In this document: positions 3,338-16,484 of the stretch, piece by piece
How the letters are laid out: every line of letters begins with the position of its first letter
Position numbering within the stretch: position 1 is the first letter of the stretch
Virus record (IMG/VR): IMGVR_UViG_3300021091_000142
Location: 1 to 44,046 of that record
Strand: one strand, 5' to 3'
DNA length: 44,046 bases
DNA from: a virus
Notes under the pieces: generated by a model
Seen by the model: only the letters and a program-made list of their open reading frames with translations
Databases searched by the model: none
Told to the model about the DNA's origin: nothing
Program-made: the position numbers and the translations under genes

Positions 3338-3934
3338 TTATTTAAATTTAGGACCAGAAACCCAAATAACAAGAGATCTACGAATGCCAGATGTGACAGG
3401 TGTTACTCGATGTAACATCCAAGATGGAAATGCATATAGCAATCCCTTTTGTTTTTTGGCTTTTATTGGTTCAGCTGATACAAAAAACTCTAAATCCCCA
3501 CCCTCATACTCATTTGGATCTGATAACTGCAATACTAATGAAAGTTTACGTGGTGTTTCGCGTGATCCTCTATCAATATGCCAAGTATAGTGATCCCCTG
3601 CGCCATCGTATACTGTATATTGAAAATCTTCAACAAACCCATCTAAACTAAAATCGTAGAATTGTCCATTGAGATGTCTGCAAATATATGCTAATGAATC
3701 ATATAACCAAGTCGTCTCATTGTTAAGTTGTATCCAAGAAGTTTTAGATTTTCTAATTTCAGATATAACTTTTCTTTCATTTTCTGTACCAACAATTGCT
3801 TCCTTTGGTCGCAAACTCTCACCAATGCGAACAATATCATTAATTTGAGAGTCGGTGAATCCATTTTCCCAAAATGTAAATGTTTGTTCTCTTGTCGATA
3901 AATCAGGCGATGGCGCAAAAAAGTATGTGCTCAT
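3338..3934 (-). CDS. 2OG-Fe(II) oxygenase, PKHD-type hydroxylase
   Basis: A 198-aa non-heme iron, 2-oxoglutarate-dependent hydroxylase. The iron triad is visible as His119-x-Asp121 in YTWHIDRGS and His175 in SWMLHRVTPV, and Arg185/Arg186 in GIRRSLVIWVSGP would bind the 2OG carboxylate. The EYEGGDLEFF block before the second His is typical of the PKHD/prolyl-4-hydroxylase group. Phage members are very common in T4-like marine viruses; proposed substrates include proteins and nucleobases, none shown here. The phage encodes several collagen-like proteins with many X-Pro or Pro-rich repeats, so prolyl hydroxylation of these is an inviting but untested idea. The stop is 6 nt before the Cys4 gene; the ATG overlaps the upstream stop (TAATG). 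Confidence 0.85.
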   Translation of the reverse strand: MSTYFFAPSPDLSTREQTFTFWENGFTDSQINDIVRIGESLRPKEAIVGTENERKVISEIRKSKTSWIQLNNETTWLYDSLAYICRHLNGQFYDFSLDGFVEDFQYTVYDGAGDHYTWHIDRGSRETPRKLSLVLQLSDPNEYEGGDLEFFVSAEPIKAKKQKGLLYAFPSWMLHRVTPVTSGIRRSLVIWVSGPKFK

Positions 3935-4709: not shown

Positions 4710-7700
4710 TTATTGATTTGGCCAAGAGATCGTAATCGATCCTGTTCCAGCACCAGTTCCTACTGAAATTGTACTTGTTGCGCCTTGTGATACTGATTTT
4801 TGCATTGTAGAAGAAGAATTGGTTGTGCTAGCTGCGCTTCCAGAACCTCCTGGTTGACCAGAAGTTGCTCCAGTTCCTGCAGAGCCAGCATTACCTGCTG
4901 ATCCATTTGAGCCAGCTGCACCATTACCGCCAGCGTTTCCTGGTTGCCCTGCTGCTCCTGGTTGACCAGAGGTTGCTCCAGTTCCTGCAGCGCCAGTATT
5001 TCCAGCAGCACCATTTGCTCCTGCTGATCCTGGTTGTCCAGCTGCTCCTGAAGTTGCTCCAGATCCTGCAGCACCAGTATTTCCAGCAGTTCCGTTAGCA
5101 CCAGCTGCTCCTGGTTGTCCAGCTGCTCCTGAAGTTGCTCCAGATCCTGCGCCTCCGATAGTGCCTGGTGCACCATTGGCACCTGCTGATCCAGGTTGTC
5201 CTGCAGCACCATTTGTTGCTCCGCTGCCACCTGCGCCTGTATTGCCTGCGACACCATTGGCACCCGCACTACCTGGTTGTCCTGCTGATCCTGATGTTGC
5301 ACCAGAACCGCCTGCACCAGTATTACCTGCTGTGCCATTGGCACCTGCTGATCCAGGTTGTCCTGCAGCACCATTATTTGCTCCAGATCCAGCATTTCCT
5401 GGTTGCCCTGCTGCTCCAGCATTTCCATTGGCTCCAGCATTTCCTGGTTGTCCAGCATTACCACCAGCACCGTTTGTGGCACCACTTCCACCACCACCAG
5501 TATTTCCTCCAGCTCCTGCTGATCCTGGTTGACCAGCAGATCCATTAGAACCAGCAGCTGCGAGATCGGTGCTGGCTGGTCCTCCTCCACCGCCAGCACC
5601 GGATCCTGGATTTCCTCCAGCACCTCCTGCCGAACCTGGTTGTCCGTCCGCAGTATGAGTTATTGGGATCCAAGGACTATAAGTCTCTGACATTCCAGCA
5701 CCACCACCGCCGCCACCGCCGCCGCCACCGCCACCACCTGGTGTTCCTGCATTTCCTGGTGATCCTGGATTACCTGCCGAACCACCACTACCACCATTAC
5801 CAGCTGCGCCACCATTGCCATTATTACCTGTATTTCCTGGCTGACCTGTTGCACCAACATTACCTGGATTTCCAGCATTACCTTGCGCACCACCAGCTCC
5901 ACCAGCACCATTAGTGCCTGGATTGCCTGAATTGCCTTGAGCACCTGGATTGCCAGCAGAACCACCAGCTCCACCTGCACCGCCAGCTCCATTATTTCCT
6001 GGTTGCCCTGCATTACCTAGTGCACCTGGATTACCTGCCGAGCCACCAGCTCCACCAGCACCTCCAGCACCATTGTTTCCTGGTTGACCAGTATTTCCTT
6101 GAGCACCTGGATTGCCAGCAGAACCTCCTGCGCCTCCAGCTCCACCAGCACCATTAGTGCCTGGATTGCCTGAATTGCCTTGAGCACCTGGATTGCCAGC
6201 AGAACCACCAGCTCCACCTGCACCTCCCGCTCCGTTGTTTCCTGGTTGTCCAGTATTTCCTTGTGCGCCTGAATTTCCTGCTGCACCACCCGCACCACCT
6301 GCACCGCCAGATCCACCATTTCCAGCATCACCATTTGTTCCTGGTTGACCTGCTGTTCCAGCGTTTCCTGGTTGACCAATATTACCTGCTGCTCCAGCAG
6401 CACCAGCGTTACCGCCAGAACCGCCTGGAAGAGAAACTGTTGTAAATGTAACAGATGAACCTGCTACAAAAGTTGTTGCATTTCCTGCATTACCTGCGGA
6501 GCCAGCAGATCCTGCTGCTCCAGGATTTCCGGCATTGCCTGGTTGACCTGATGTGCCAGGATTTGCTCCAGTACCAGCATTACCTGCTGCGCCTGTTGAT
6601 CCTGGTGTTCCAGAGTTGCCATTTGCCCCCGCAGCTCCAGGTTGTCCTGCAGATCCTGGTGTTGCTCCTGTTCCTGCCGCTCCTGTATTGCCAGCAGCAC
6701 CTGCTGAACCTGCATTTCCTGGTTGTCCTGCTGAACCAGATGTAGCGCCTGATCCTGCAGCACCAGTATTACCTGCTGTGCCATTGGCACCTGCTGATCC
6801 TGGTTGACCCGCAGCCCCCGAAGTTGCTCCAGATCCCGCAGCGCCAGTATTTCCTGCCGCGCCATTTGCACCTGCAGCTCCAGGTTGTCCCGCTTGACCA
6901 ATATTAGCGCCAGAACCAGCAGCACCAGTATTACCTGCTGCTCCAGCAGATCCTGCATTTCCTGGTTGTCCGCTCGCGCCAGGATTTGCTCCAGAACCAC
7001 CACCGCCAGTATTTCCAGCATTTCCGTTTGCACCAGCATTTCCTGGCTGGCCAGCAGATCCTGGTTGTCCACCAGTTGCACCTGAGCCTCCGCTTCCAGG
7101 ATTACCTGCTGCACCTGTGTTTCCTGCTGCACCTGCATTACCACCAGAACCAGGATTTCCTGATCCACCTGATCCAGCATTTCCACCGTTACCAGCATTA
7201 CCGCCATAATTAAGTAAAGTTCCTGGATATCCTGGTGATGCAGGATTACCGCCACCTTGACCATAAGTCCCACTTGCACCATAATTTGGATATCCGATAT
7301 TTCCTGTAGGATTGCCATTTGTTCCTGTGTTTCCATTATTTCCTGGTGTGGTTGAACTTGGTTGTGTAAATACTGACCAGCCACCTTGTCCACCACCACC
7401 TGCATTGCCGCCGTTTGCACCAGCACCACCTGCACCACCATTTCCGTTGCTACCAGCATTACCAGTCGCACCAGCATTTCCTGCGTTTCCTGGATTGCCA
7501 GCATTTCCTCTAGCACCGCCTGGACCTCCAGCACCACCGTTTCCGTTAGTTCCAGGATTTCCTGAGTTTCCTGTAGCACCTGAATTGCCAGCAGAGCCTC
7601 CTGCGCCACCAGCACCACCGTTTCCATTTGAACCAGGTTGTCCAGTGTTGCCTTGTGCTCCAGGGTTGCCAGCATTTCCTCTGGCGCCACCAGCACCGCC

Positions 7701-8222
7701 AGCTCCGTTGTTTCCTGGCTGTCCTGTGTTGCCCTGCGCGCCTGGATTACCTGCTGAACCTCCAGCACCACCTGCTCCGCCAGCACCATTTGAGCCAGGT
7801 TGACCTGTGTTACCTTGAGCACCTGAATTGCCAGCAGAGCCTCCTGCGCCACCAGCACCACCGTTTCCATTTGAACCAGGTTGTCCAGTGTTTCCTATTG
7901 CTCCGGAATTGCCAGCAGAACCCCCTGCACCACCAGCACCACCCGCACCATTATTACCTGCATTTCCTGGCTGACCTGTTGAACCTTGTGCTCCTGGATT
8001 ACCAGCATTACCAGCAGTACCACCTGTACCAGCAGAACCACCATTACCTCCGACGCCATTATTTCCAGGATTACCTGCAGTACCAGCATTACCTGTACCA
8101 CCTGTACCAGAAATTGTAATTCGTCGAACGCCAAATGGAATGTACCATGTTCCGTTCGTTGAAAATGTAACGGAACCTGCTTTTACTCTCGTTTTTCGAA
8201 GAGTCGTCGCTGCTAATGGCAT
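4710..8222 (-). CDS. Giant glycine-rich (Gly-X-Y / PGII-like) fibre-tip adhesin
   Basis: A 1170-aa protein, almost entirely Gly-X-Y triplets. An N-terminal domain (about residues 1-38, with FSTNGTWYIPFGVRRITISG) resembles the entry motif of phage Gly-rich domain proteins (F-x-x-x-G-x-W-x-x-P-x-G-V). Then come four blocks of about 230-260 aa. Blocks A and A' use a 24-aa unit like GAGGAGGSAGNPGAQGNTGQ plus PGNN. Blocks B and B' use units like GNTGAAGSGATSGAAGQPG. They are separated by non-repetitive islands: an aromatic island with WSVFTQPSSTT and YPNYGASGTYGQ, a short beta-like ATTFVAGSSVTFTTVSLPGG, and a poly-Gly run followed by MSETYSPWIPITHTADG. The C-terminus (QGATSTISVGTGAGTGSITISWPNQ region) is beta-like. 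A receptor-binding role is inferred by analogy with polyglycine-helix adhesins such as phage S16 gp38. SD AAAAGG lies 9 nt upstream. Confidence 0.75.
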   Translation of the reverse strand: MPLAATTLRKTRVKAGSVTFSTNGTWYIPFGVRRITISGTGGTGNAGTAGNPGNNGVGGNGGSAGTGGTAGNAGNPGAQGSTGQPGNAGNNGAGGAGGAGGSAGNSGAIGNTGQPGSNGNGGAGGAGGSAGNSGAQGNTGQPGSNGAGGAGGAGGSAGNPGAQGNTGQPGNNGAGGAGGARGNAGNPGAQGNTGQPGSNGNGGAGGAGGSAGNSGATGNSGNPGTNGNGGAGGPGGARGNAGNPGNAGNAGATGNAGSNGNGGAGGAGANGGNAGGGGQGGWSVFTQPSSTTPGNNGNTGTNGNPTGNIGYPNYGASGTYGQGGGNPASPGYPGTLLNYGGNAGNGGNAGSGGSGNPGSGGNAGAAGNTGAAGNPGSGGSGATGGQPGSAGQPGNAGANGNAGNTGGGGSGANPGASGQPGNAGSAGAAGNTGAAGSGANIGQAGQPGAAGANGAAGNTGAAGSGATSGAAGQPGSAGANGTAGNTGAAGSGATSGSAGQPGNAGSAGAAGNTGAAGTGATPGSAGQPGAAGANGNSGTPGSTGAAGNAGTGANPGTSGQPGNAGNPGAAGSAGSAGNAGNATTFVAGSSVTFTTVSLPGGSGGNAGAAGAAGNIGQPGNAGTAGQPGTNGDAGNGGSGGAGGAGGAAGNSGAQGNTGQPGNNGAGGAGGAGGSAGNPGAQGNSGNPGTNGAGGAGGAGGSAGNPGAQGNTGQPGNNGAGGAGGAGGSAGNPGALGNAGQPGNNGAGGAGGAGGSAGNPGAQGNSGNPGTNGAGGAGGAQGNAGNPGNVGATGQPGNTGNNGNGGAAGNGGSGGSAGNPGSPGNAGTPGGGGGGGGGGGGGAGMSETYSPWIPITHTADGQPGSAGGAGGNPGSGAGGGGGPASTDLAAAGSNGSAGQPGSAGAGGNTGGGGSGATNGAGGNAGQPGNAGANGNAGAAGQPGNAGSGANNGAAGQPGSAGANGTAGNTGAGGSGATSGSAGQPGSAGANGVAGNTGAGGSGATNGAAGQPGSAGANGAPGTIGGAGSGATSGAAGQPGAAGANGTAGNTGAAGSGATSGAAGQPGSAGANGAAGNTGAAGTGATSGQPGAAGQPGNAGGNGAAGSNGSAGNAGSAGTGATSGQPGGSGSAASTTNSSSTMQKSVSQGATSTISVGTGAGTGSITISWPNQ
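4841..8109 (-). repeat. Gly-X-Y coding repeat array of the adhesin (A-B-A'-B')
   Basis: Imperfect 72-nt units (24 aa) and 81-nt-like units (27 aa) alternate in four blocks at about 7390-8109, 6490-7205, 5740-6424 and 4860-5640. Island positions are about 7205-7390, 6424-6490 and 5640-5740. The array is locally GC-rich against the AT-rich genome because of Gly, Ala and Pro codons. Confidence 0.85.
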
Positions 8223-9021: not shown

Positions 9022-11349
9022 TCAGTAAGATACGTTAGCCATAGCATGTGCGCCAAAGTATGTAGCACCATTATTAACAGTAAACAAAGTAATCACATCA
9101 AGTTTGCTGGCGATTCCAGAAGACAATGTAGGAACTTCGGCATTCGACCAGTATACAGTATTTGCAAATGTAACAACATTTGCTGCAGTTCCAGGCTGTC
9201 TTAGGATTAGCGTTAATGGGCTAGACTTACCTGAAGCAGCAACGCTTGTAAATGTAATTGCTACAGTTGATGCTTGAAGTGTGAGATCAAAAATATTATT
9301 TCCAGAAGCATCAGCTGTAAATGTCGAACCAGTAATTGTTGCACTGTTTGTGCGTTCAATATATCCATACAATTCAACACCACCAGAAGCCATTGGTCCT
9401 TGTGGACCTTGAGGACCTTGTGGTCCAGTCACACCCTGTGGTCCTTGCGGTCCCTGTGGTCCTTGTGGTCCAGTCACACCCTGTGGTCCTTGTGGTCCCT
9501 GTGGACCTTGTGGACCAGTTACACCTTGCGGTCCTTGTGGTCCCTGAGGACCAGTGACGCCTTGTGGTCCTTGTGGACCTTGTGGACCAGTAACACCTTG
9601 CGGTCCTTGTGGTCCCTGAGGACCAGTGTCGCCTTGTGGTCCTTGTGGTCCAGGAACGTTCGAAACACCAGCTGGTCCTTGTGGACCTTGAGGTCCAGTA
9701 TCACCTTGTGAACCTTGTGGACCTTGAGGTCCAGTCACACCTTGTGGACCTTGCGGACCTTGTGGACCAGTCACACCTTGTGGACCTTGTGGACCAGTCA
9801 CACCTTGTGGACCTTGTGGACCTTGCGGACCCTGTGGACCTGTTGGTCCTGGGACGTTAGACACACCGCTTGGTCCCTGTGGACCTTGAGGTCCAGTATC
9901 ACCTTGTGGACCTTGTGGTCCTTGCGGACCAGTCACACCTTGTGGACCCTGTGGTCCTTGCGGACCTTGTGGTCCCTGTGGTCCTTGAGGACCTGCATCA
10001 CCCTTGTCACCAGTTCTTGCAAATGTAATAATAACATTTGTTGAATCTGGGAATGTTGTTACGCCAGTTGTGTGCGCAACAGGAACATAGAAGTAACTTG
10101 AAGTGTGATCATGCAATCCATTAATACTAAAGAATGCAAACTCATTAATGTTTGCACTATTTGCTAACTTAAATGTTCCTTTGATTGTTGAAGTAGAGTC
10201 GTCAATTGTTTGTAGATAATTAAATACATTTGCTGAATTTTGATCAATGAAATCAATATACAATGTTGTTGCTGTCGAGAAAGATGCGCTATTGAATTTT
10301 AAATTTGATGATCCAGGATCTGAGTTTGCTGTGTTTGTTAGATACACAAACTCAAATGTTGCGCCACCGAATTCGCCAGTGTCACCCTTTGCTCCTTGAG
10401 GACCTTGCGGTCCTTGTGGACCCTGTGGTCCTTGTGGACCTTGTGGACCCTGTGGACCAGTAACACCAATCACACCTTGTGGACCTTGCGGACCTTGTGG
10501 TCCTTGCGGTCCAGTTAAACCAATTGGACCTTGTGGTCCTGTTGGTCCAGGAACATTTGAGACACCAGATGGTCCTTGAGGACCTTGTGGACCTTCAACT
10601 CCTTGTGGTCCTTGTGGACCAATAACACCTTGTGGTCCTTGTGGTCCTTGTGGACCCTGTGGACCTTGTGGACCAGGAACATTCGAAACACCACTTGGTC
10701 CTTGTGGACCTTCTGGACCCTGTGGACCTGTTGGTCCTGGAACATTCGAAACACCACTTGGTCCTTGTGGACCTTGCGGTCCTTGTGGTCCTGTTGGTCC
10801 AGGAACATTTGAAACGCCAGCTGGTCCTTGTGGACCCTCAACTCCTTGTGGTCCCTGAGGACCTTGTGGACCCTGTGGACCAGTCACACCTTGCGGACCT
10901 TGTGGTCCTTGAGGTCCTGTTACTCCTTGTGGACCCTGCGGTCCTTGTGGTCCTTGAGGACCAGTGTCGCCAATGACACCTTGTGAACCCTGCGGACCTT
11001 GTGGACCTTGTGGTCCAGTTACACCTTGAGGACCTTGTGGACCAGTGATACCCTGTGGTCCTTGTGGACCAATGTCGCCAGTCACACCTTGTGGTCCTTG
11101 TGGACCAGTTACACCTTGCGGACCTTGTGCACCAGTTACACCCTGCGGTCCTTGTGGACCTTGTGGACCAGTTGCACCTTGTGATCCTTGAGAACCAGTC
11201 ACACCTTGCGGACCTTGAGGTCCTTGTGGACCAACACCCTGTGGACCTTGTGGACCCTGCGGTCCTTGTGGACCTTGCGGACCTTGTGGACCGCGTGCAA
11301 TTTGCAAAACATTTACAGATTGGCTTTGCTGTTTAACTGTAACTGCCAT
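9022..11349 (-). CDS. Collagen-like tail fibre protein with interrupting beta domain
   Basis: A 775-aa protein. After a short N-terminus ([13 protein letters not shown]) come about 300 residues of Gly-Pro-Gln/Gly-Val-Thr triplets. A non-repetitive beta-rich domain of about 125 residues follows ([19 protein letters not shown] to [14 protein letters not shown]). A second stretch of about 205 residues of triplets comes next. The final domain of about 110 residues begins [20 protein letters not shown] and ends [10 protein letters not shown]. Occasional [10 protein letters not shown] units break the strict GPQ pattern. GPQ-rich collagen-like stalks form trimeric triple helices in other phages. It overlaps the upstream gene by TAATG and shares its tip domain with the 134-aa gene downstream. 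The role is a trimeric fibre or appendage; attachment site on the virion unknown. Confidence 0.85.
9394..10008 (-). repeat. Collagen-like GPQ coding repeats, distal stalk
   Basis: Tandem 9-nt Gly-X-Y units with frequent 27-nt higher-order units GPQGPQGVT. Third-base usage varies from unit to unit, so these repeats look older or more diverged than those at 14697-15439. Confidence 0.9.
10387..11293 (-). repeat. Collagen-like GPQ coding repeats, proximal stalk
   Basis: Tandem 9-nt Gly-X-Y units, mostly GPQ and GVT, with several [15 protein letters not shown] interruptions. The array is separated from the distal array by the beta domain encoded at about 10009-10386. Confidence 0.9.
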
Positions 11350-11681
11350 TATTTTGTAACCTGTGGATACACCGTGATAATACCCTCAATAAGGCGAGTT
11401 ACATTGTTGCTATTGACTTCTTTAATATCGTAGAGATATCTTCCAGGGCGAATATTTGCAGTCACAGCTGAATTTGCATTTGCATAAATGAAACCATTAG
11501 CAGCATCAGCGGCTGTAATTGATAGATTTGCAGTAACAGAAGAAGAATAATAGGACTTGCGAATTGATGATGTGAATGTAGAGTTCGCAACGTTTCTTGT
11601 AGAACCGTCTTCGTTAATTACAGTAATATCCACGCCAAAGGAAGTTCCTTGGTCCATTGATAATTCTACATACTGCGCCAT
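11349..11681 (-). CDS. Small Ig-like/BppU-type virion protein
   Basis: A 110-aa protein beginning [20 protein letters not shown], followed by a dGS-type turn, an [10 protein letters not shown] strand, and [11 protein letters not shown] near the end with [15 protein letters not shown]. This pattern (Q-G-x-x-x, then I-R-K-S-Y, then G-x-Y-x-Y-D and E-G-x-x-x-V-x-P-x-V-T) is common to small beta-sandwich phage proteins next to fibres in T4-like marine phages, and resembles N-terminal domains of baseplate upper proteins. It is probably a fibre adaptor or collar. It is the first gene after a late-promoter-like box and has an AGGA SD 8 nt before its ATG. Function is inferred from family pattern and position. 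Confidence 0.65.
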
Positions 11682-11714: not shown

Positions 11715-12413
11715 TTAATTCGCTTTTCTTTCTAGCATATAGTCGAAAAGTTTTGATTTCATTCTTAAACGTTTTCTAACTTCATCTGGCTCTTCATACT
11801 TCATATTTAATTTGTTTAAGGCTTTTTTACGTCTATTAAGTTTAGCCTCTAGTTTGCTTGTATCTATGCATCGAATCCACTTATATCCTTTCCAAGAGTC
11901 TTCGTTATCATTATCGGCAAACTTACTGAAAACTTCTGAATATTCTACCTTCTCGCTATCTGCTAAACATTTATCATATGGTGCGCATTTTTCGCAAACA
12001 TCATCACATCCTTTAATGTGAATCTGCCAATTTGTCTTTCTAAAGCCATGATAAAACAAAGTCCATGAACCAGGAATACATGATTTTAATTGATGAACAT
12101 CGTCCTTTGTTCTAAAAACAAACTCACCTTTTTTGCGATTATAATCTTTGCCATTGAATGTTTCTAGATATCCACCCTTTAAAATGTAGGTTACTGTTGC
12201 CCAAGGATGATTATGATCGTATCCACCGTCAGTATATTTTTCTACAGGAAAGTAATGTAACCATACATTAGGTAACCATCTCATTCCCTTCTTTTTGTCT
12301 TCATCCTCTTCAAAATAAAACAAATAGTATCTATGCGCTAAAATGTTACCGTAAAAATCAACAAATACTTTTTTTCTTCCAATCTTCTCAAGAAATCGCA
12401 AAAACAAATTCAT
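11715..12413 (-). CDS. Cupin-like metal-binding protein
   Basis: A 232-aa protein with a cupin core: DHNHPWATVTYILKGGYLE provides the H-x-H and later Glu of cupin motif 1 (about residues 66-85), and DVHQLKS plus PGSWTLFYHGF provide motif 2. Downstream lies a Cys cluster (CDDVCEKCAPYDKC, about residues 135-148) that could bind a second metal. The C-terminal 50 residues are strongly charged and helical (EAKLNRRKKALNKLNMKYEE). Phage cupins of this kind are seen near tail genes; the reaction is unknown and it could be an isomerase, a dioxygenase or a structural protein. It has a 4-nt ATGA overlap with the upstream gene, so the pair is translationally coupled. Confidence 0.65.
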   Translation of the reverse strand: MNLFLRFLEKIGRKKVFVDFYGNILAHRYYLFYFEEDEDKKKGMRWLPNVWLHYFPVEKYTDGGYDHNHPWATVTYILKGGYLETFNGKDYNRKKGEFVFRTKDDVHQLKSCIPGSWTLFYHGFRKTNWQIHIKGCDDVCEKCAPYDKCLADSEKVEYSEVFSKFADNDNEDSWKGYKWIRCIDTSKLEAKLNRRKKALNKLNMKYEEPDEVRKRLRMKSKLFDYMLERKAN

Positions 12414-13105
12414 TTTGTAAACCTCACAATTTTTACTCGTCGCGCATTATTATTTGTAACATTTAATGTTGCATTCACAAACTTATACATACGCTTACTT
12501 CTTAAAATCTTTTCTCCACTATTGAGTGAATCAGAAAACAATAAAAAGCAAGATTCAACTTCTGGTCTTGATAATGTGATTGTTTCTCCAGATTCTATGG
12601 TTCTATTCATAAAAGTATATCTTGAATATGATCCATTTAATCTTGTAACACATAACATTTCTGCATCTTCGGAATTGAGAATAACTTTTGCTTTTGGTGA
12701 AGCAATTTGCCATCTGATGTGATTATCCACCCACTCACTAGACTGCCAATCAGTTGTGATGTCAGCATACAACTTATTATTCGCCATATCCTTTGTAAAG
12801 GTATAATTTGTAAGTGCTGGTGAAATCGTTGTTAGATAATTGTCTACTTCACTTTCAGATATCTGCCCTGATTTCCATTCCCACTCAGCTCTAATGTTTC
12901 CACTTAAAAATAATTGCCCATTAAAACAACTAACGACATTTGCCAGTGTTGAGTGTGGATTTAATGCGCCAGCAGAATGATGTGCGCTGGCGATGCTGTC
13001 GCGCATAATATATTTGCCAATGTTTCCTGGTTCAAAATGAGAGACTAAAAGTTCATCATCGTACAGACCAAGAATTTTAGGAGTTATATTGGATTCAAAA
13101 GCCAT
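12410..13105 (-). CDS. Hypothetical virion-associated protein
   Basis: A 231-aa protein not recognised as a named family. It starts MAFESNITPKILGLYDDELL and appears mostly beta-rich, with alternating Thr/Asn/Val segments (TLNVTNNNARRVKIVRF) near the end, as in small tail decoration or adaptor proteins. A middle segment, KLYADITTDWQSSEWVDNHI, could be a carbohydrate-binding-like strand pair, but no motif is certain. It is coupled on both sides: the ATG overlaps the stop of a 46-aa gene (TAATG) and the stop overlaps the cupin gene (ATGA). It lies between the Hint-bearing virion protein and the cupin gene, which suggests expression with the fibre module. Confidence 0.5.
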   Translation of the reverse strand: MAFESNITPKILGLYDDELLVSHFEPGNIGKYIMRDSIASAHHSAGALNPHSTLANVVSCFNGQLFLSGNIRAEWEWKSGQISESEVDNYLTTISPALTNYTFTKDMANNKLYADITTDWQSSEWVDNHIRWQIASPKAKVILNSEDAEMLCVTRLNGSYSRYTFMNRTIESGETITLSRPEVESCFLLFSDSLNSGEKILRSKRMYKFVNATLNVTNNNARRVKIVRFTK

Positions 13106-13245
13106 TATAATTCCTCTGCTTCAGTTTCTGGATCAGTGAAAGGGGCTTTGATATAACTCTTCAATGGAAGATTAATTGTTGTCTCGTCGCCGTTGTCCCA
13201 TTGCAGTGTGGTATTTGCGCTATTATTTTCTGTATTTGCTGACAT
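13105..13245 (-). CDS. Small acidic protein (46 aa)
   Basis: A short gene whose ATG (13243-13245) overlaps the stop of the Hint-domain gene and whose TAA (13105-13107) overlaps the ATG of the next gene. That exact double TAATG coupling is the main evidence that it is real. The product is Asn/Thr-rich at the start (MSANTENNSANTT), holds LQWDNGDETTINLPLKSYI, and ends in an acidic run (ETEAEEL). No homologue recognised; it could be a small adaptor or chaperone for a neighbour. Confidence 0.6.
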   Translation of the reverse strand: MSANTENNSANTTLQWDNGDETTINLPLKSYIKAPFTDPETEAEEL

Positions 13246-14264
13246 TAGTATACCAACACTCCATCAGCATAAAAGTTTGGACTTGTTTTAAATTTATTAT
13301 TAAAGGTGTAGACTGTATCAAAATGATCAATTCGTACAATTTCATCTACCTGGATTGAATTATTGTCTTTATCCACAAAGTTGTCGCCAACTTCCACCAT
13401 CTGAACATTAGTTAAACTCTTGTACCCATTCATTGTGAGTGCAGGATTCATCGAACAATATCCTTTACCAACTACAAAAAATGGATGATCATGTGAAGCA
13501 CGTATTTCTTTTCCATTTGCTAGAGTATACTTGTACATCATTCTATTCACGCGTGTAATTAATTCCTCAACTTCATTAGTTTCATGCTGCTGAGTTTCTG
13601 GATTATATGATAGAATTTGATCACCAACCTGAATTTGATTAATATTTTTTTTTGATAAATCAGCCATTGTAACTTCAGTATCATGTGTAAAACAACAACC
13701 GCCGCCGCCTCCGCCGCCGCCGCCACCGACGCCGTCAGGTATCGCGCCACCATCATTAAATCGTAATCCAATTGTAAATGTTCCGCTGGCTGGTAGATTA
13801 AACGGTTGATTCCAATAAATCTCAGCACCACCTGTACCATATCCATTCACTGTGCTTGTAATTGTTCTTTGAATATCTTGTGTTGCTAAAATATTAATGT
13901 TACCGGCAGGATAATTTTCAAATGCAACCCACATAAACATCACTTCTGTACCATCACCATAATTAAATGATATAACAGAAGCCACATTTTGAGTAATACT
14001 AGTATTGGCTATTACAATTTGATCATCAATGCTTCCATGCAAATATTCAGTAAACCCAGTTTGATTTCCAAATTTTTGATCATAAGAAGCAGAAGTAACG
14101 GTTGCTCCATATGATCTATAAAGATCACTCATTCTAACATCATTATTAAAACCGAGTCCAAGTCTATTTGCAGCATCACTGCGCAATGCAACCTGACCTG
14201 AAAATGATTGCAGGATCTCCAATCTGAGTGAACTCATGCTGATTTGTCCAGAGGTTGGTGTCAT
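13245..14264 (-). CDS. Virion protein with C-terminal Hint (hedgehog/intein-like) domain
   Basis: A 339-aa protein. The N-terminus (MTPTSGQISMSSLRLEIL, then MSDLYRSYGA) is a pattern seen in many tail-associated phage proteins, and residues about 55-175 look like a beta-sandwich. A run of Gly at about 180-189 leads into Cys190-Cys191 and a Hint domain. Block A is CCFTHDTEVTMAD with IQVGDQILSYNPETQ. Block B is RASHDHPFFVVGKG with the conserved His. Block F is VDEIVRIDHFDTVYTFNN, and the end is SPNFYADGVLVY. The terminal His-Asn and a C-extein are absent, so this is not a splicing intein; it resembles bacterial intein-like or Hog-type domains that do N-S shift chemistry at Cys. Likely outcome: self-cleavage or covalent attachment of the N-terminal part. 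The ATG has a TAATG-type link with the small gene downstream. Confidence 0.75.
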   Translation of the reverse strand: MTPTSGQISMSSLRLEILQSFSGQVALRSDAANRLGLGFNNDVRMSDLYRSYGATVTSASYDQKFGNQTGFTEYLHGSIDDQIVIANTSITQNVASVISFNYGDGTEVMFMWVAFENYPAGNINILATQDIQRTITSTVNGYGTGGAEIYWNQPFNLPASGTFTIGLRFNDGGAIPDGVGGGGGGGGGGCCFTHDTEVTMADLSKKNINQIQVGDQILSYNPETQQHETNEVEELITRVNRMMYKYTLANGKEIRASHDHPFFVVGKGYCSMNPALTMNGYKSLTNVQMVEVGDNFVDKDNNSIQVDEIVRIDHFDTVYTFNNKFKTSPNFYADGVLVY

Positions 14265-14267
14265 CGA

Positions 14268-16484
14268 TCAGCCCTTTTGAATCAAATCCATTAATGCATC
14301 TTGTTTCTTGTCAATATCTTTAATGGCTTCAATAAGTAGTGCAACGATCTTATCGTACTTAACAGCAAGAATTCCATCTGGTCTTTCAGCTACAACTTCT
14401 GGTAGCACTTGTTGAATGTCCTGAGCGATAACACCAATATCTTGCTTACGAACAAAATATCCATCTTCACCGCCGCGTCTTTGAACTTCTTCTTCATTCC
14501 AATCATAACGAACACCATTAATCTTCTTCAGAAGTTCAAGAGCATTTTCGATGTTGCGAATATTTTCTTTGAGTCGACGATCAGAGGAATAATATGCAAT
14601 CACATCACCAGAAGAACGAATTTCATTCGATGCAATAGATGTAGATGATGTACTAACGATCAATCCACCAAAATAAACATGATTGGTTGTGTTTGCAGCT
14701 CCAGCTGGACCTTGTGGACCTTGCGGACCAGTCACACCTTGTGGACCTTGTGGACCAGTCACACCTTGTGGACCTTGTGGACCAGTCACACCTTGTGGAC
14801 CTTGTGGACCAGTCACACCTTGTGGACCTTGTGGACCAGCAGGACCTTGTGGACCTTGTGGACCAGTCACACCTTGTGGACCTTGTGGACCAGCAGGACC
14901 TTGTGGACCTTGTGGACCAGTCACACCTTGTGGACCTTGTGGACCAGCAGGACCTTGTGGACCTTGTGGACCAGTCACACCTTGTGGACCTTGTGGACCA
15001 GTCACACCTTGTGGACCTTGTGGACCAACACCCTGTGGACCTTGTGGACCTTGTGGACCAGTCACACCTTGTGGACCTTGTGGACCAACACCCTGTGGAC
15101 CTTGTGGACCTTGTGGACCAGTCACACCTTGTGGTCCTTGAGGTCCTTGTGGACCAACACCCTGTGGACCTTGTGGTCCTTGTGGACCAGTCACACCTTG
15201 TGGTCCTTGTGGACCAACACCCTGTGGACCTTGTGGACCTTGTGGACCAGTCACACCTTGTGGTCCTTGAGGTCCTTGTGGACCAGTCACACCTTGTGGT
15301 CCTTGAGGTCCTTGTGGACCAATCACACCTTGTGGTCCTTGAGGTCCTTGTGGACCAGCAGGACCTTGTGGACCTTGTGGACCAGTCACACCTTGTGGAC
15401 CTTGTGGACCAGCAGGACCCTGTGGACCTTGTGGTCCACCAGATGAAATAAATGACACATTAGCATTCGTACCATTTTGAGAAACTGCAACACTAACTGT
15501 AGAGGTATTATTGAAAACTAGGTTCTGAACCGAAATAGATGTTCCTGAATTGGCAGAAACTTTCACAGCTGCATTATTTGCTTGATCGAAAGCAGCATTG
15601 GCTTGACCGTATGCATTATTTGCTTGATTATAAGCATCGCCAGCTGCAGCACCACTCACAGCAAATTCAACATTAGCATTTGTTCCATCAGAGTGAGGAG
15701 ATACAGTAACAAGAACACTAGCAGTATTAATAAAGTTCAGTTGTTTTGCTGACAGTGTCGAAGAACTGTTTTGTGATACACGAACAGTATTGGCAGCAGA
15801 GTTCGCTGTATCATGAGCATTAGTAATTGCGGTATTTTGAGATCCTGCAGAGGTATTAAGCGTTGCGAATGTAGTGTTAACTGTTGCAAATGTAGTATTG
15901 ACATCAGAACGTGCTGTATTGGCTTGCACATAGGCAGCATTGGCTTGTCCATATGCGTTATTTGCTTGAGCGTATGCATCGAGCCCACTCACAAAGTTAT
16001 ACATTGTTGAGCCGTCGTCACTCCATCCCCAACGATCACTAGTTTCGTTCCATCTTAAGAATGTATTAGTTGAACTGCCACGATCAACTGTAATACTTGA
16101 ATTATTGACAGGAGCACCAGTCGTGTTTGAATTCAAAACAATGTCGAAATCTTCTACTTCTAAAGTATGGACATTAAGTGTTACTGAGTTACCTTCAACA
16201 AATAAATTTCCAAATACAGTAAGATCTTTATTTACGATCATCGTATTTGCATTAATCGTCGTAGCATTTAAAACATTAGAAACAAAGACATTACCATTCC
16301 CTGTGCTACCAATTGTTAGATATGGAGAAGTATTAACAGTGTTTAGAATTGTAAGTGTGCCATTATCCTTCACATAATTAGAGTTGCGAAGAATATTACG
16401 ATCTTCAATCAGATCGTTCGTGCCAGCACGCCATTCGTTGAACGTATTGACTAACTGAATATGTGCTATATTTGCATTTGCCAT
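14268..16484 (-). CDS. Collagen-like tail fibre with S74 intramolecular chaperone
   Basis: A 738-aa fibre protein. Residues 1-160 are a head-like region with a beta-strand repeat ([19 protein letters not shown]), as in many marine phage fibres. About 165-330 holds alpha-helical AYxQAN heptad-like repeats ([17 protein letters not shown]), a predicted trimeric coiled coil. About 350-600 is a long collagen-like GPQGPQGVT stalk. The last 110 residues are the endosialidase-type chaperone (peptidase S74): [15 protein letters not shown], then [16 protein letters not shown] and [17 protein letters not shown]. In S74 proteins the Ser before D-x-R-x-K and the Lys mediate autocleavage, which frees the chaperone after trimerisation; the same Ser-Asp-Arg-x-x-Lys is intact here. 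It is a trimeric tail fibre for host recognition. Confidence 0.9.
14697..15439 (-). repeat. Collagen-like GPQ coding array, highly homogeneous
   Basis: About 740 nt of near-identical 27-nt units reading GPQGPQGVT or GPQGPQGPA, broken only by a few GPQGVGPQ units. Codons are almost identical across units, unlike the diverged arrays at 9394-11293. This points to recent expansion or gene conversion. Confidence 0.9.

Follow-up and report, generated by a model that had tools for sequence, protein, structure and literature searches.

The locus described here lies on a 44-kb virus record, IMGVR_UViG_3300021091_000142, all 44,046 nucleotides of which make up the window that was analyzed. By PHROGs, its genes are those of a T4-like myovirus (baseplate wedge and hub proteins, a tail tube cap, and a single-strand binding protein were matched). 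The closest annotated baseplate wedge proteins belong to Methylophilales phage Melnitz and the Pelagibacter phages Mosig and HTVC008M, at 38–40% identity; a comparison with annotated phages returned no DNA similarity to the window. A collagen-like tail fiber gene that ends in an S74 domain is followed directly on its 3' side, after a gap of 3 bp between the open reading frames, by the gene for a protein, P0001, with a C-terminal Hint domain (Table 1). The position and strand given for this second gene in a sequence-only reading of the window proved correct when the DNA was re-read.

Table 1. Features of the Hint protein gene and its neighbors (window coordinates)
Feature	Position	Strand	Basis
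Hint protein gene, 339 aa (P0001)	13245..14264	(-)	ORF ending TAA; full-length homologue L214
N-terminal motif SGQISMSSL...VRMSDLYR, residues 1-51	14112..14264	(-)	motif HMM
Variable middle region, residues 52-178	13731..14111	(-)	BLASTP; low AlphaFold confidence
Gly run, residues 180-189, then Cys190 at -1	13698..13727	(-)	sequence
Hint domain Cys191-Tyr339, blocks A, B, F; without block G His-Asn or C-extein	13248..13694	(-)	Pfam, NCBIfam, PDB profile, AlphaFold, Foldseek, conservation
Collagen-like tail fiber with C-terminal S74 intramolecular chaperone	14268..16484	(-)	Pfam Collagen 4e-32, Peptidase_S74 6.4e-18
46-codon ORF, ATG overlapping Hint stop codon (TAATG)	13105..13245	(-)	no counterpart at this place in L214, L129
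Small MAQ(Y/F) gene	11349..11681	(-)	PHROG 1084 (1.4e-18); PHROG 3304 'L-shaped tail fiber protein assembly' (3.4e-11)

From its N-terminus onward, P0001 comprises a conserved motif, a middle region with no recognizable domain, ten glycines, two cysteines, and a Hint domain that extends to the last residue. The motif is probably an attachment module. The N-part as a whole found no match by sequence in annotated phages, and its AlphaFold model lacked confidence and was too poor for fold comparison. Residues 179–191 read VGGGGGGGGGGCC and lead into block A (CFTHDTEV, 191–198), block B (SHDHPFF, 257–263), and block F (VYTFNN...NFYADGVLVY, 318–339). Block B contains Ser257-His-Asp-His260, position B:7 being Ser throughout the clade to which the window's domain belongs (hereafter, the window clade). 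The sequence-only reading had placed the active site at Cys190-Cys191; both cysteines do follow the glycine run, but only Cys191 is the catalytic Cys1, and Cys190, the −1 residue, was ruled out for that role by Pfam and by the relatives, which place Cys191 at Cys1. Calculated masses are 20.0 kDa for residues 1–190, in agreement with the roughly 20 kDa expected earlier for the N-part, and 17.1 kDa for residues 191–339, where 16 kDa had been expected.

The assignment of a C-terminal Hint domain with blocks A, B, and F, also made from the sequence at the outset, is upheld by four methods. Pfam Hint (E 1.5e-7) and AXH (2.3e-9) both score above their curated cut-offs, and NCBIfam intein_Nterm reaches 32.2 bits against a cut-off of 24.5. 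A profile built from 42 relatives retrieved the Tetrahymena BIL2 chains at about 6e-23, the BIL of C. thermocellum at 7e-16, and the gp41-1 intein at 2e-10. AlphaFold modeled residues 190–339 with pLDDT mostly >85 (block means 78–98), and the top Foldseek match of this model was BIL2 of the Tetrahymena BUBL1 locus (E 2e-12, target TM 0.83–0.88, rmsd 1.5–2.1 Å), ahead of inteins and the C. thermocellum BIL; Hedgehog (1at0) matched at 9.6e-6, and the Foldseek probability was 1.00 for BILs, inteins, and Hedgehog. At the level of sequence and predicted structure, residues 190–339 are confirmed as a complete Hint fold and as a member of the Hint superfamily.

Inteins carry a His-Asn pair at the position where P0001 stops (Tyr339). 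Here the chain ends ...FYADGVLVY, the last Hint strand being followed immediately by the stop codon, and in having no C-terminal His-Asn, +1 nucleophile, or C-extein the protein falls outside the splicing inteins. The absence of the His-Asn and the C-extein had been pointed out before, and it is now found in relatives as well, which also stop at Tyr. L214 is related over its full length (64% identity in the N-part and 73% in the Hint domain), while the Hint domains of L129 and of L222–L224 are 69% and 66–67% identical to that of P0001; L214 and L129 end in GVLVY, L222–L224 end in GVLTY, and CCF and DHPF occur in all of them. Pairwise dN/dS values lie between 0.04 and 0.17 where dS is not infinite, several pairs being saturated in dS. 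On these comparisons, the Hint module is under purifying selection and the loss of His-Asn is not decay, because the two cysteines and the terminal Tyr are kept at 66–73% identity under that selection. A frameshift or sequencing error behind the missing His-Asn was ruled out, given that L214, L129, and L222–L224 end at the same Tyr in their own genomes, and an ordinary selfish intein was ruled out by the purifying selection together with the absent His-Asn.

The same module is found on different carriers. In BLASTP, the N-part of P0001 matches that of L214 at E 1e-75, whereas that of L129 (E 0.27) is unrelated; the Hint genes of L129 and the window nevertheless both follow an S74/collagen fiber and both precede the MAQ(Y/F) gene, with two genes intervening in the window. 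In L222–L224, the module ends a Gly-rich fiber of 758–776 aa whose upstream gene has no S74 domain and whose N-terminus resembles that of the window protein 4710–8222, itself without a Hint domain. In P0001, L129, and L222–L224 alike, the module begins right after a glycine run. A search with a C-terminal pattern independent of Cys1 returned only the lineages of P0001, L214, L129, and L222–L224, and when prokaryotic genomes were searched with the clade profile, none of the 61 pattern matches proved to be a relative.

To place these domains more broadly, viral contigs were scanned with two peptide patterns, neither of which contains Cys1 or the terminal His-Asn. The scan yielded 69 distinct Hint domains, 36 of them without the terminal Asn (21 clusters at 90% identity, 13 at 70%, and 7 at 50%). 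Cys1 is present in 36/36 of the Asn-less domains and the block B His likewise in 36/36, so that the loss of these residues, which the sequence-only reading had proposed to look for in relatives, did not appear. At the position of the non-catalytic Cys270 of P0001, L222 and L223 have Ala, which ruled out a functional disulfide involving Cys270, and the other large Asn-less clade likewise lacks Cys there. Asn-less Hints average 4.5 glycines over the 12 residues ahead of Cys1, against 1.2 expected. The CC pair is invariant in the distinct members of the window clade (5/5), and CC or CPxCC recurs in other Hints; in the Asn-less Hints L141, L244, and L158, for example, CPxCC forms a Cys cluster that runs up to and includes Cys1. 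The Asn-less HS clade mostly has Leu or Phe directly before Cys1 and has lost the block A Thr; an N-part of this HS type was modeled by AlphaFold as a beta-sandwich whose matches to sialidase and adhesin domains were only weak and are given no weight here.

In the tree, the window clade (100% SH-aLRT support) lies among Asn-bearing domains, and the Asn trait changes at least five times, at least two of these changes being forced by well-supported branches; by this reconstruction, the Asn-less state arose more than once. Because Cys1 is invariant in Asn-less Hints and Asn was lost more than once, Asn appears dispensable and Cys1 does not, a pattern that fits retention of the first Hint step (the N–S acyl shift) without Asn cyclization. 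Sequence conservation of this kind indicates that Asn-less, Cys1-keeping Hints are retained by selection with their catalytic residues.

The fiber upstream of P0001 carries an S74 self-cleavage motif, YYS^SDRRLKEN, around residue 633/634, and its site S^SDRRLK matches the site S^SDRRIKK of phage S16 (PMC7917993). With an HMM built from six S74 domains, an S74 gene was found directly upstream of 21/33 Asn-less Hint genes as opposed to 0/49 Asn-bearing ones (p 2e-11), or, with Hints grouped at 50% identity, 5/9 as opposed to 0/32 (p 2e-4); this association comes from essentially two Asn-less clades, and the p values overstate independence. The N-terminal motif points to the same slot: with its HMM, 25 of the 29 distinct non-edge motif proteins lie directly 3' of an S74 gene, a figure that is a description and not a rate, as most loci were fetched via their Hint and gp065 of HTVC008M was in the motif seed. 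Among the motif proteins behind S74, four have no Hint domain, including a protein of Marine virus AG-345-L05 and HTVC008M gp065, which occupies the S74-fiber slot and joins the same N-terminal motif to a body matched by Pfam Gly_rich_2 (6.7e-18). Gene position and N-terminal motif together suggest that P0001 is located in the virion, and the tail-appendage setting proposed in the sequence-only reading holds, as the gene stands directly after an S74-tipped fiber in the way that gp38 of T2 and S16 stands after gp37. A different arrangement is seen in L162 and L164, where an S74 fiber itself contains an Asn-bearing Hint, placed after the fiber body and ahead of the S74 domain, and two self-processing domains share one chain.

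Downstream of P0001, synteny places the counterpart of the small MAQ(Y/F) gene directly 3' of the Hint gene in L214 and L129, and the window has two extra genes in between. One is the 46-codon ORF, and the other, behind it, is a 231-aa gene (12410–13105) for which a family search gave no match; neither is directly 3' of the Hint gene in L214 or L129. The window also combines long collagen-like GPQ fibers (9022–11349 and 4710–8222) with a 2OG-Fe(II) oxygenase (3338–3934) and a group 1 glycosyltransferase (1436–2434), making hydroxylation or glycosylation of its viral collagen possible. At 14679–15451, the plus strand opposite the GPQ repeats has long ORFs in three frames, probably artefacts of the repetitive sequence.

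Hint domains occur on other proteins in several forms. Proteins of about 910 aa starting MKGT(L/V)FSADF (L134, L231, L233, and L234, also L136) have three tandem C-terminal Hints with almost no linker between them (junctions such as VHNRACF and THNKACF), and others have two; no function was found for these proteins. Tail-tip proteins of about 1250–1300 aa, gpJ-like by eye (L009, L011, L012, and many of L008–L127), carry a Hint 15–60 residues from the N-terminus, with Gly-rich IxGxGGGG-like stretches on both sides and VHN followed by Ala; here, a Gly-run insertion site is reused. L080, L188, and L205, which resemble other T4-like baseplate or tail proteins (gp10-like and gp5-like by eye), also end in Gly-run or plain Hints. 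Databases already list Hint domains on phage proteins; the novelty lies in a form that lacks Asn, keeps Cys1 under selection, and is tied to the slot behind S74 fibers. A search of four representative Hints against 50,697 phage records matched no T4-like fiber-slot protein; the weak matches were to hypothetical proteins of gut phages and to inteins located in terminases and polymerases. Nor did the open papers searched report Hint domains on phage fiber-tip proteins. Such fiber-slot Hints have probably gone unnoticed because most examples come from uncultivated phages.

The model in which we place about half of our confidence takes P0001 to be a gp38-like distal tip protein of an S74-matured fiber, with a Hint domain capable of N-side cleavage only; the label "gp38-like" is an analogy drawn from gene order and architecture. 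The S74 domain of the fiber would cut itself off after trimerization and expose a docking surface, to which the SGQIS...SDLY motif of the Hint protein would bind, the variable middle region serving as the putative recognition part. The Hint domain would then form a thioester between Cys191 and the preceding residue, and its resolution by water or a thiol would release the Hint and leave the 20-kDa N-part with a glycine tail. Self-cleavage of P0001 is plausible, and the N-part is probably the part of the phage that touches the host. N-side cleavage would be the sole remaining Hint chemistry because there is no terminal Asn and nothing lies downstream, and an N-side-only cleaving tip protein is the most economical model because the gene pair has the S16/T2 gp37–gp38 layout. 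Several observations count against parts of this model. Position F:4, often Asp in active inteins (PMC4031507), is Thr320 in P0001, which weighs against an active Hint, and the occurrence of the L222–L224 module on a fiber without an upstream S74 weighs against the tip slot. The sequence searches matched no gp38 of known structure, and the S74 association goes back to essentially two clades.

An unreactive Hint fold may instead have been reused as a binding or capping domain at the fiber tip, which we regard as possible but unlikely. The lost His-Asn end, the F:4 residue other than Asp, and the loss of the block A Thr in the Asn-less HS clade would all suit such a reuse, yet a dead fold need not keep Cys1, and it is Cys1 and the block B His that are invariant in all Asn-less sequences while Cys270 varies. 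If the domain is reactive, the Cys191 thioester could also be attacked by an amine on the fiber, on another virion protein, or on the host surface, so that the N-part would become fixed through its glycine tail in a ubiquitin-like manner. This covalent transfer would draw on the Gly-rich acyl side before Cys1, which recalls the Gly-Gly of the Tetrahymena BIL2 construct, on BIL2 being the nearest solved fold, on the enrichment of upstream Gly in Asn-less Hints, and on the absence of a terminal Asn, without which splicing cannot compete. We nonetheless consider it rather unlikely: no acceptor is identifiable, the −1 residue in the window clade is Cys and not Gly, glycine runs are common linkers in phage fibers, and hydrolysis of the thioester takes fewer assumptions. 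The fuller version, a fiber tip with its own ubiquitin-like conjugation in which a Gly-tailed tip is handed to a fiber or host-surface amine, is a shade more doubtful still.

The invariance of CC in the 5/5 window-clade members, and the recurrence of CC or CPxCC in other Hints, would accord with a redox latch, in which a Cys190–Cys191 disulfide, vicinal or intermolecular, stabilizes or blocks the domain extracellularly until reduction starts the reaction; disulfides of the active-site Cys control some inteins (PMC4031507). We deem such a latch improbable, because vicinal disulfides are rare and most members of the large Asn-less HS clade carry Leu or Phe at −1, and it would in any case be a possible control on the other mechanisms and not a full function. 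That the module is a mobile-intein remnant, its splicing lost and heading for deletion, we hold to be hardly credible. Asn-bearing Hints do surround the window clade on the tree, and phages often carry inteins and Hint modules, but the purifying selection (dN/dS 0.04–0.17), the invariant catalytic residues, the constant end point at Tyr, and the intact module on unrelated N-parts all run counter to decay.

Two unrelated self-processing modules—S74 on the fiber and Hint on the next gene product—appear to be coupled in the operon for host recognition in marine T4-like phages. Were the Hint active, fiber-tip maturation would involve a thioester, a new means of completing or anchoring a receptor-binding tip, and if transfer is true, the outcome would be a covalently anchored tip or covalent adhesion. 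Hints that lack Asn but keep Cys1 offer a natural set for the study of Hint chemistry confined to the N-side.

Among known systems, the C-terminal domain of Hedgehog (1at0) shares with P0001 a C-terminal Hint with Cys1 and T/SxxH, the absence of Asn, and the same fold. P0001 differs in having no sterol-recognition region and in ending with the Hint fold, and its fold match to Hedgehog is far weaker than to BILs. In a hand alignment to a Hedgehog sequence, the putative equivalent of the cholesterol-activating Asp/His of Hedgehog is Thr237. BIL2 of the Tetrahymena thermophila BUBL1 locus (PDB 6tmm, 6y75) is the nearest solved fold both to the P0001 Hint and to a distant Asn-less clade; it shares with P0001 the block A layout CF...T.(I/V)TMAD, and Gly directly precedes Cys1 in the BIL2 construct. 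Unlike P0001, BIL2 retains its terminal Asn (Asn143, which is mutated in the solved structure) and lies in a ciliate locus and not on a phage fiber; the two are 22% identical.

For the fiber tip, the closest parallels are the gp37–gp38 pairs. The gp37 of S16 removes its own last 113 residues by cleavage at S^SDRRIKK and so exposes the dock for gp38; S16 gp38 attaches through a conserved N-terminal domain and has variable loops flanked by polyglycine motifs (PMC7917993). The gp38 of T2-type phages sits at the fiber tip and is the receptor-binding protein (PMC12892980). P0001 resembles T2 and S16 gp38 in the position of its gene directly after an S74/IMC-tipped fiber, and in its conserved N-terminus, variable body, and Gly-rich segments; a sequence search of the PDB gave no gp38 match for P0001 or HTVC008M gp065, and the cited gp38 literature describes no Hint domain on gp38, a point of difference from P0001. 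HTVC008M gp065, from a Pelagibacter phage, shares the slot and the N-terminal motif with P0001 and departs from it in its Gly_rich_2 body and lack of a Hint. In its predicted chemistry, P0001 comes closest to the B-type BILs, which have the intein motifs except the C-terminal one, cleave on the N-side, and occur in variable proteins (PMC7765530). P0001 likewise has the intein motifs minus the C-terminal motif, and its carrier is variable, its N-part being unrelated to that of L129 although the Hints are 69% identical. B-type BILs have been described on bacterial proteins, and P0001 is likened to them by motifs and carrier; these suggest that the P0001 Hint works like a B-type BIL, and N-side autocleavage is predicted.
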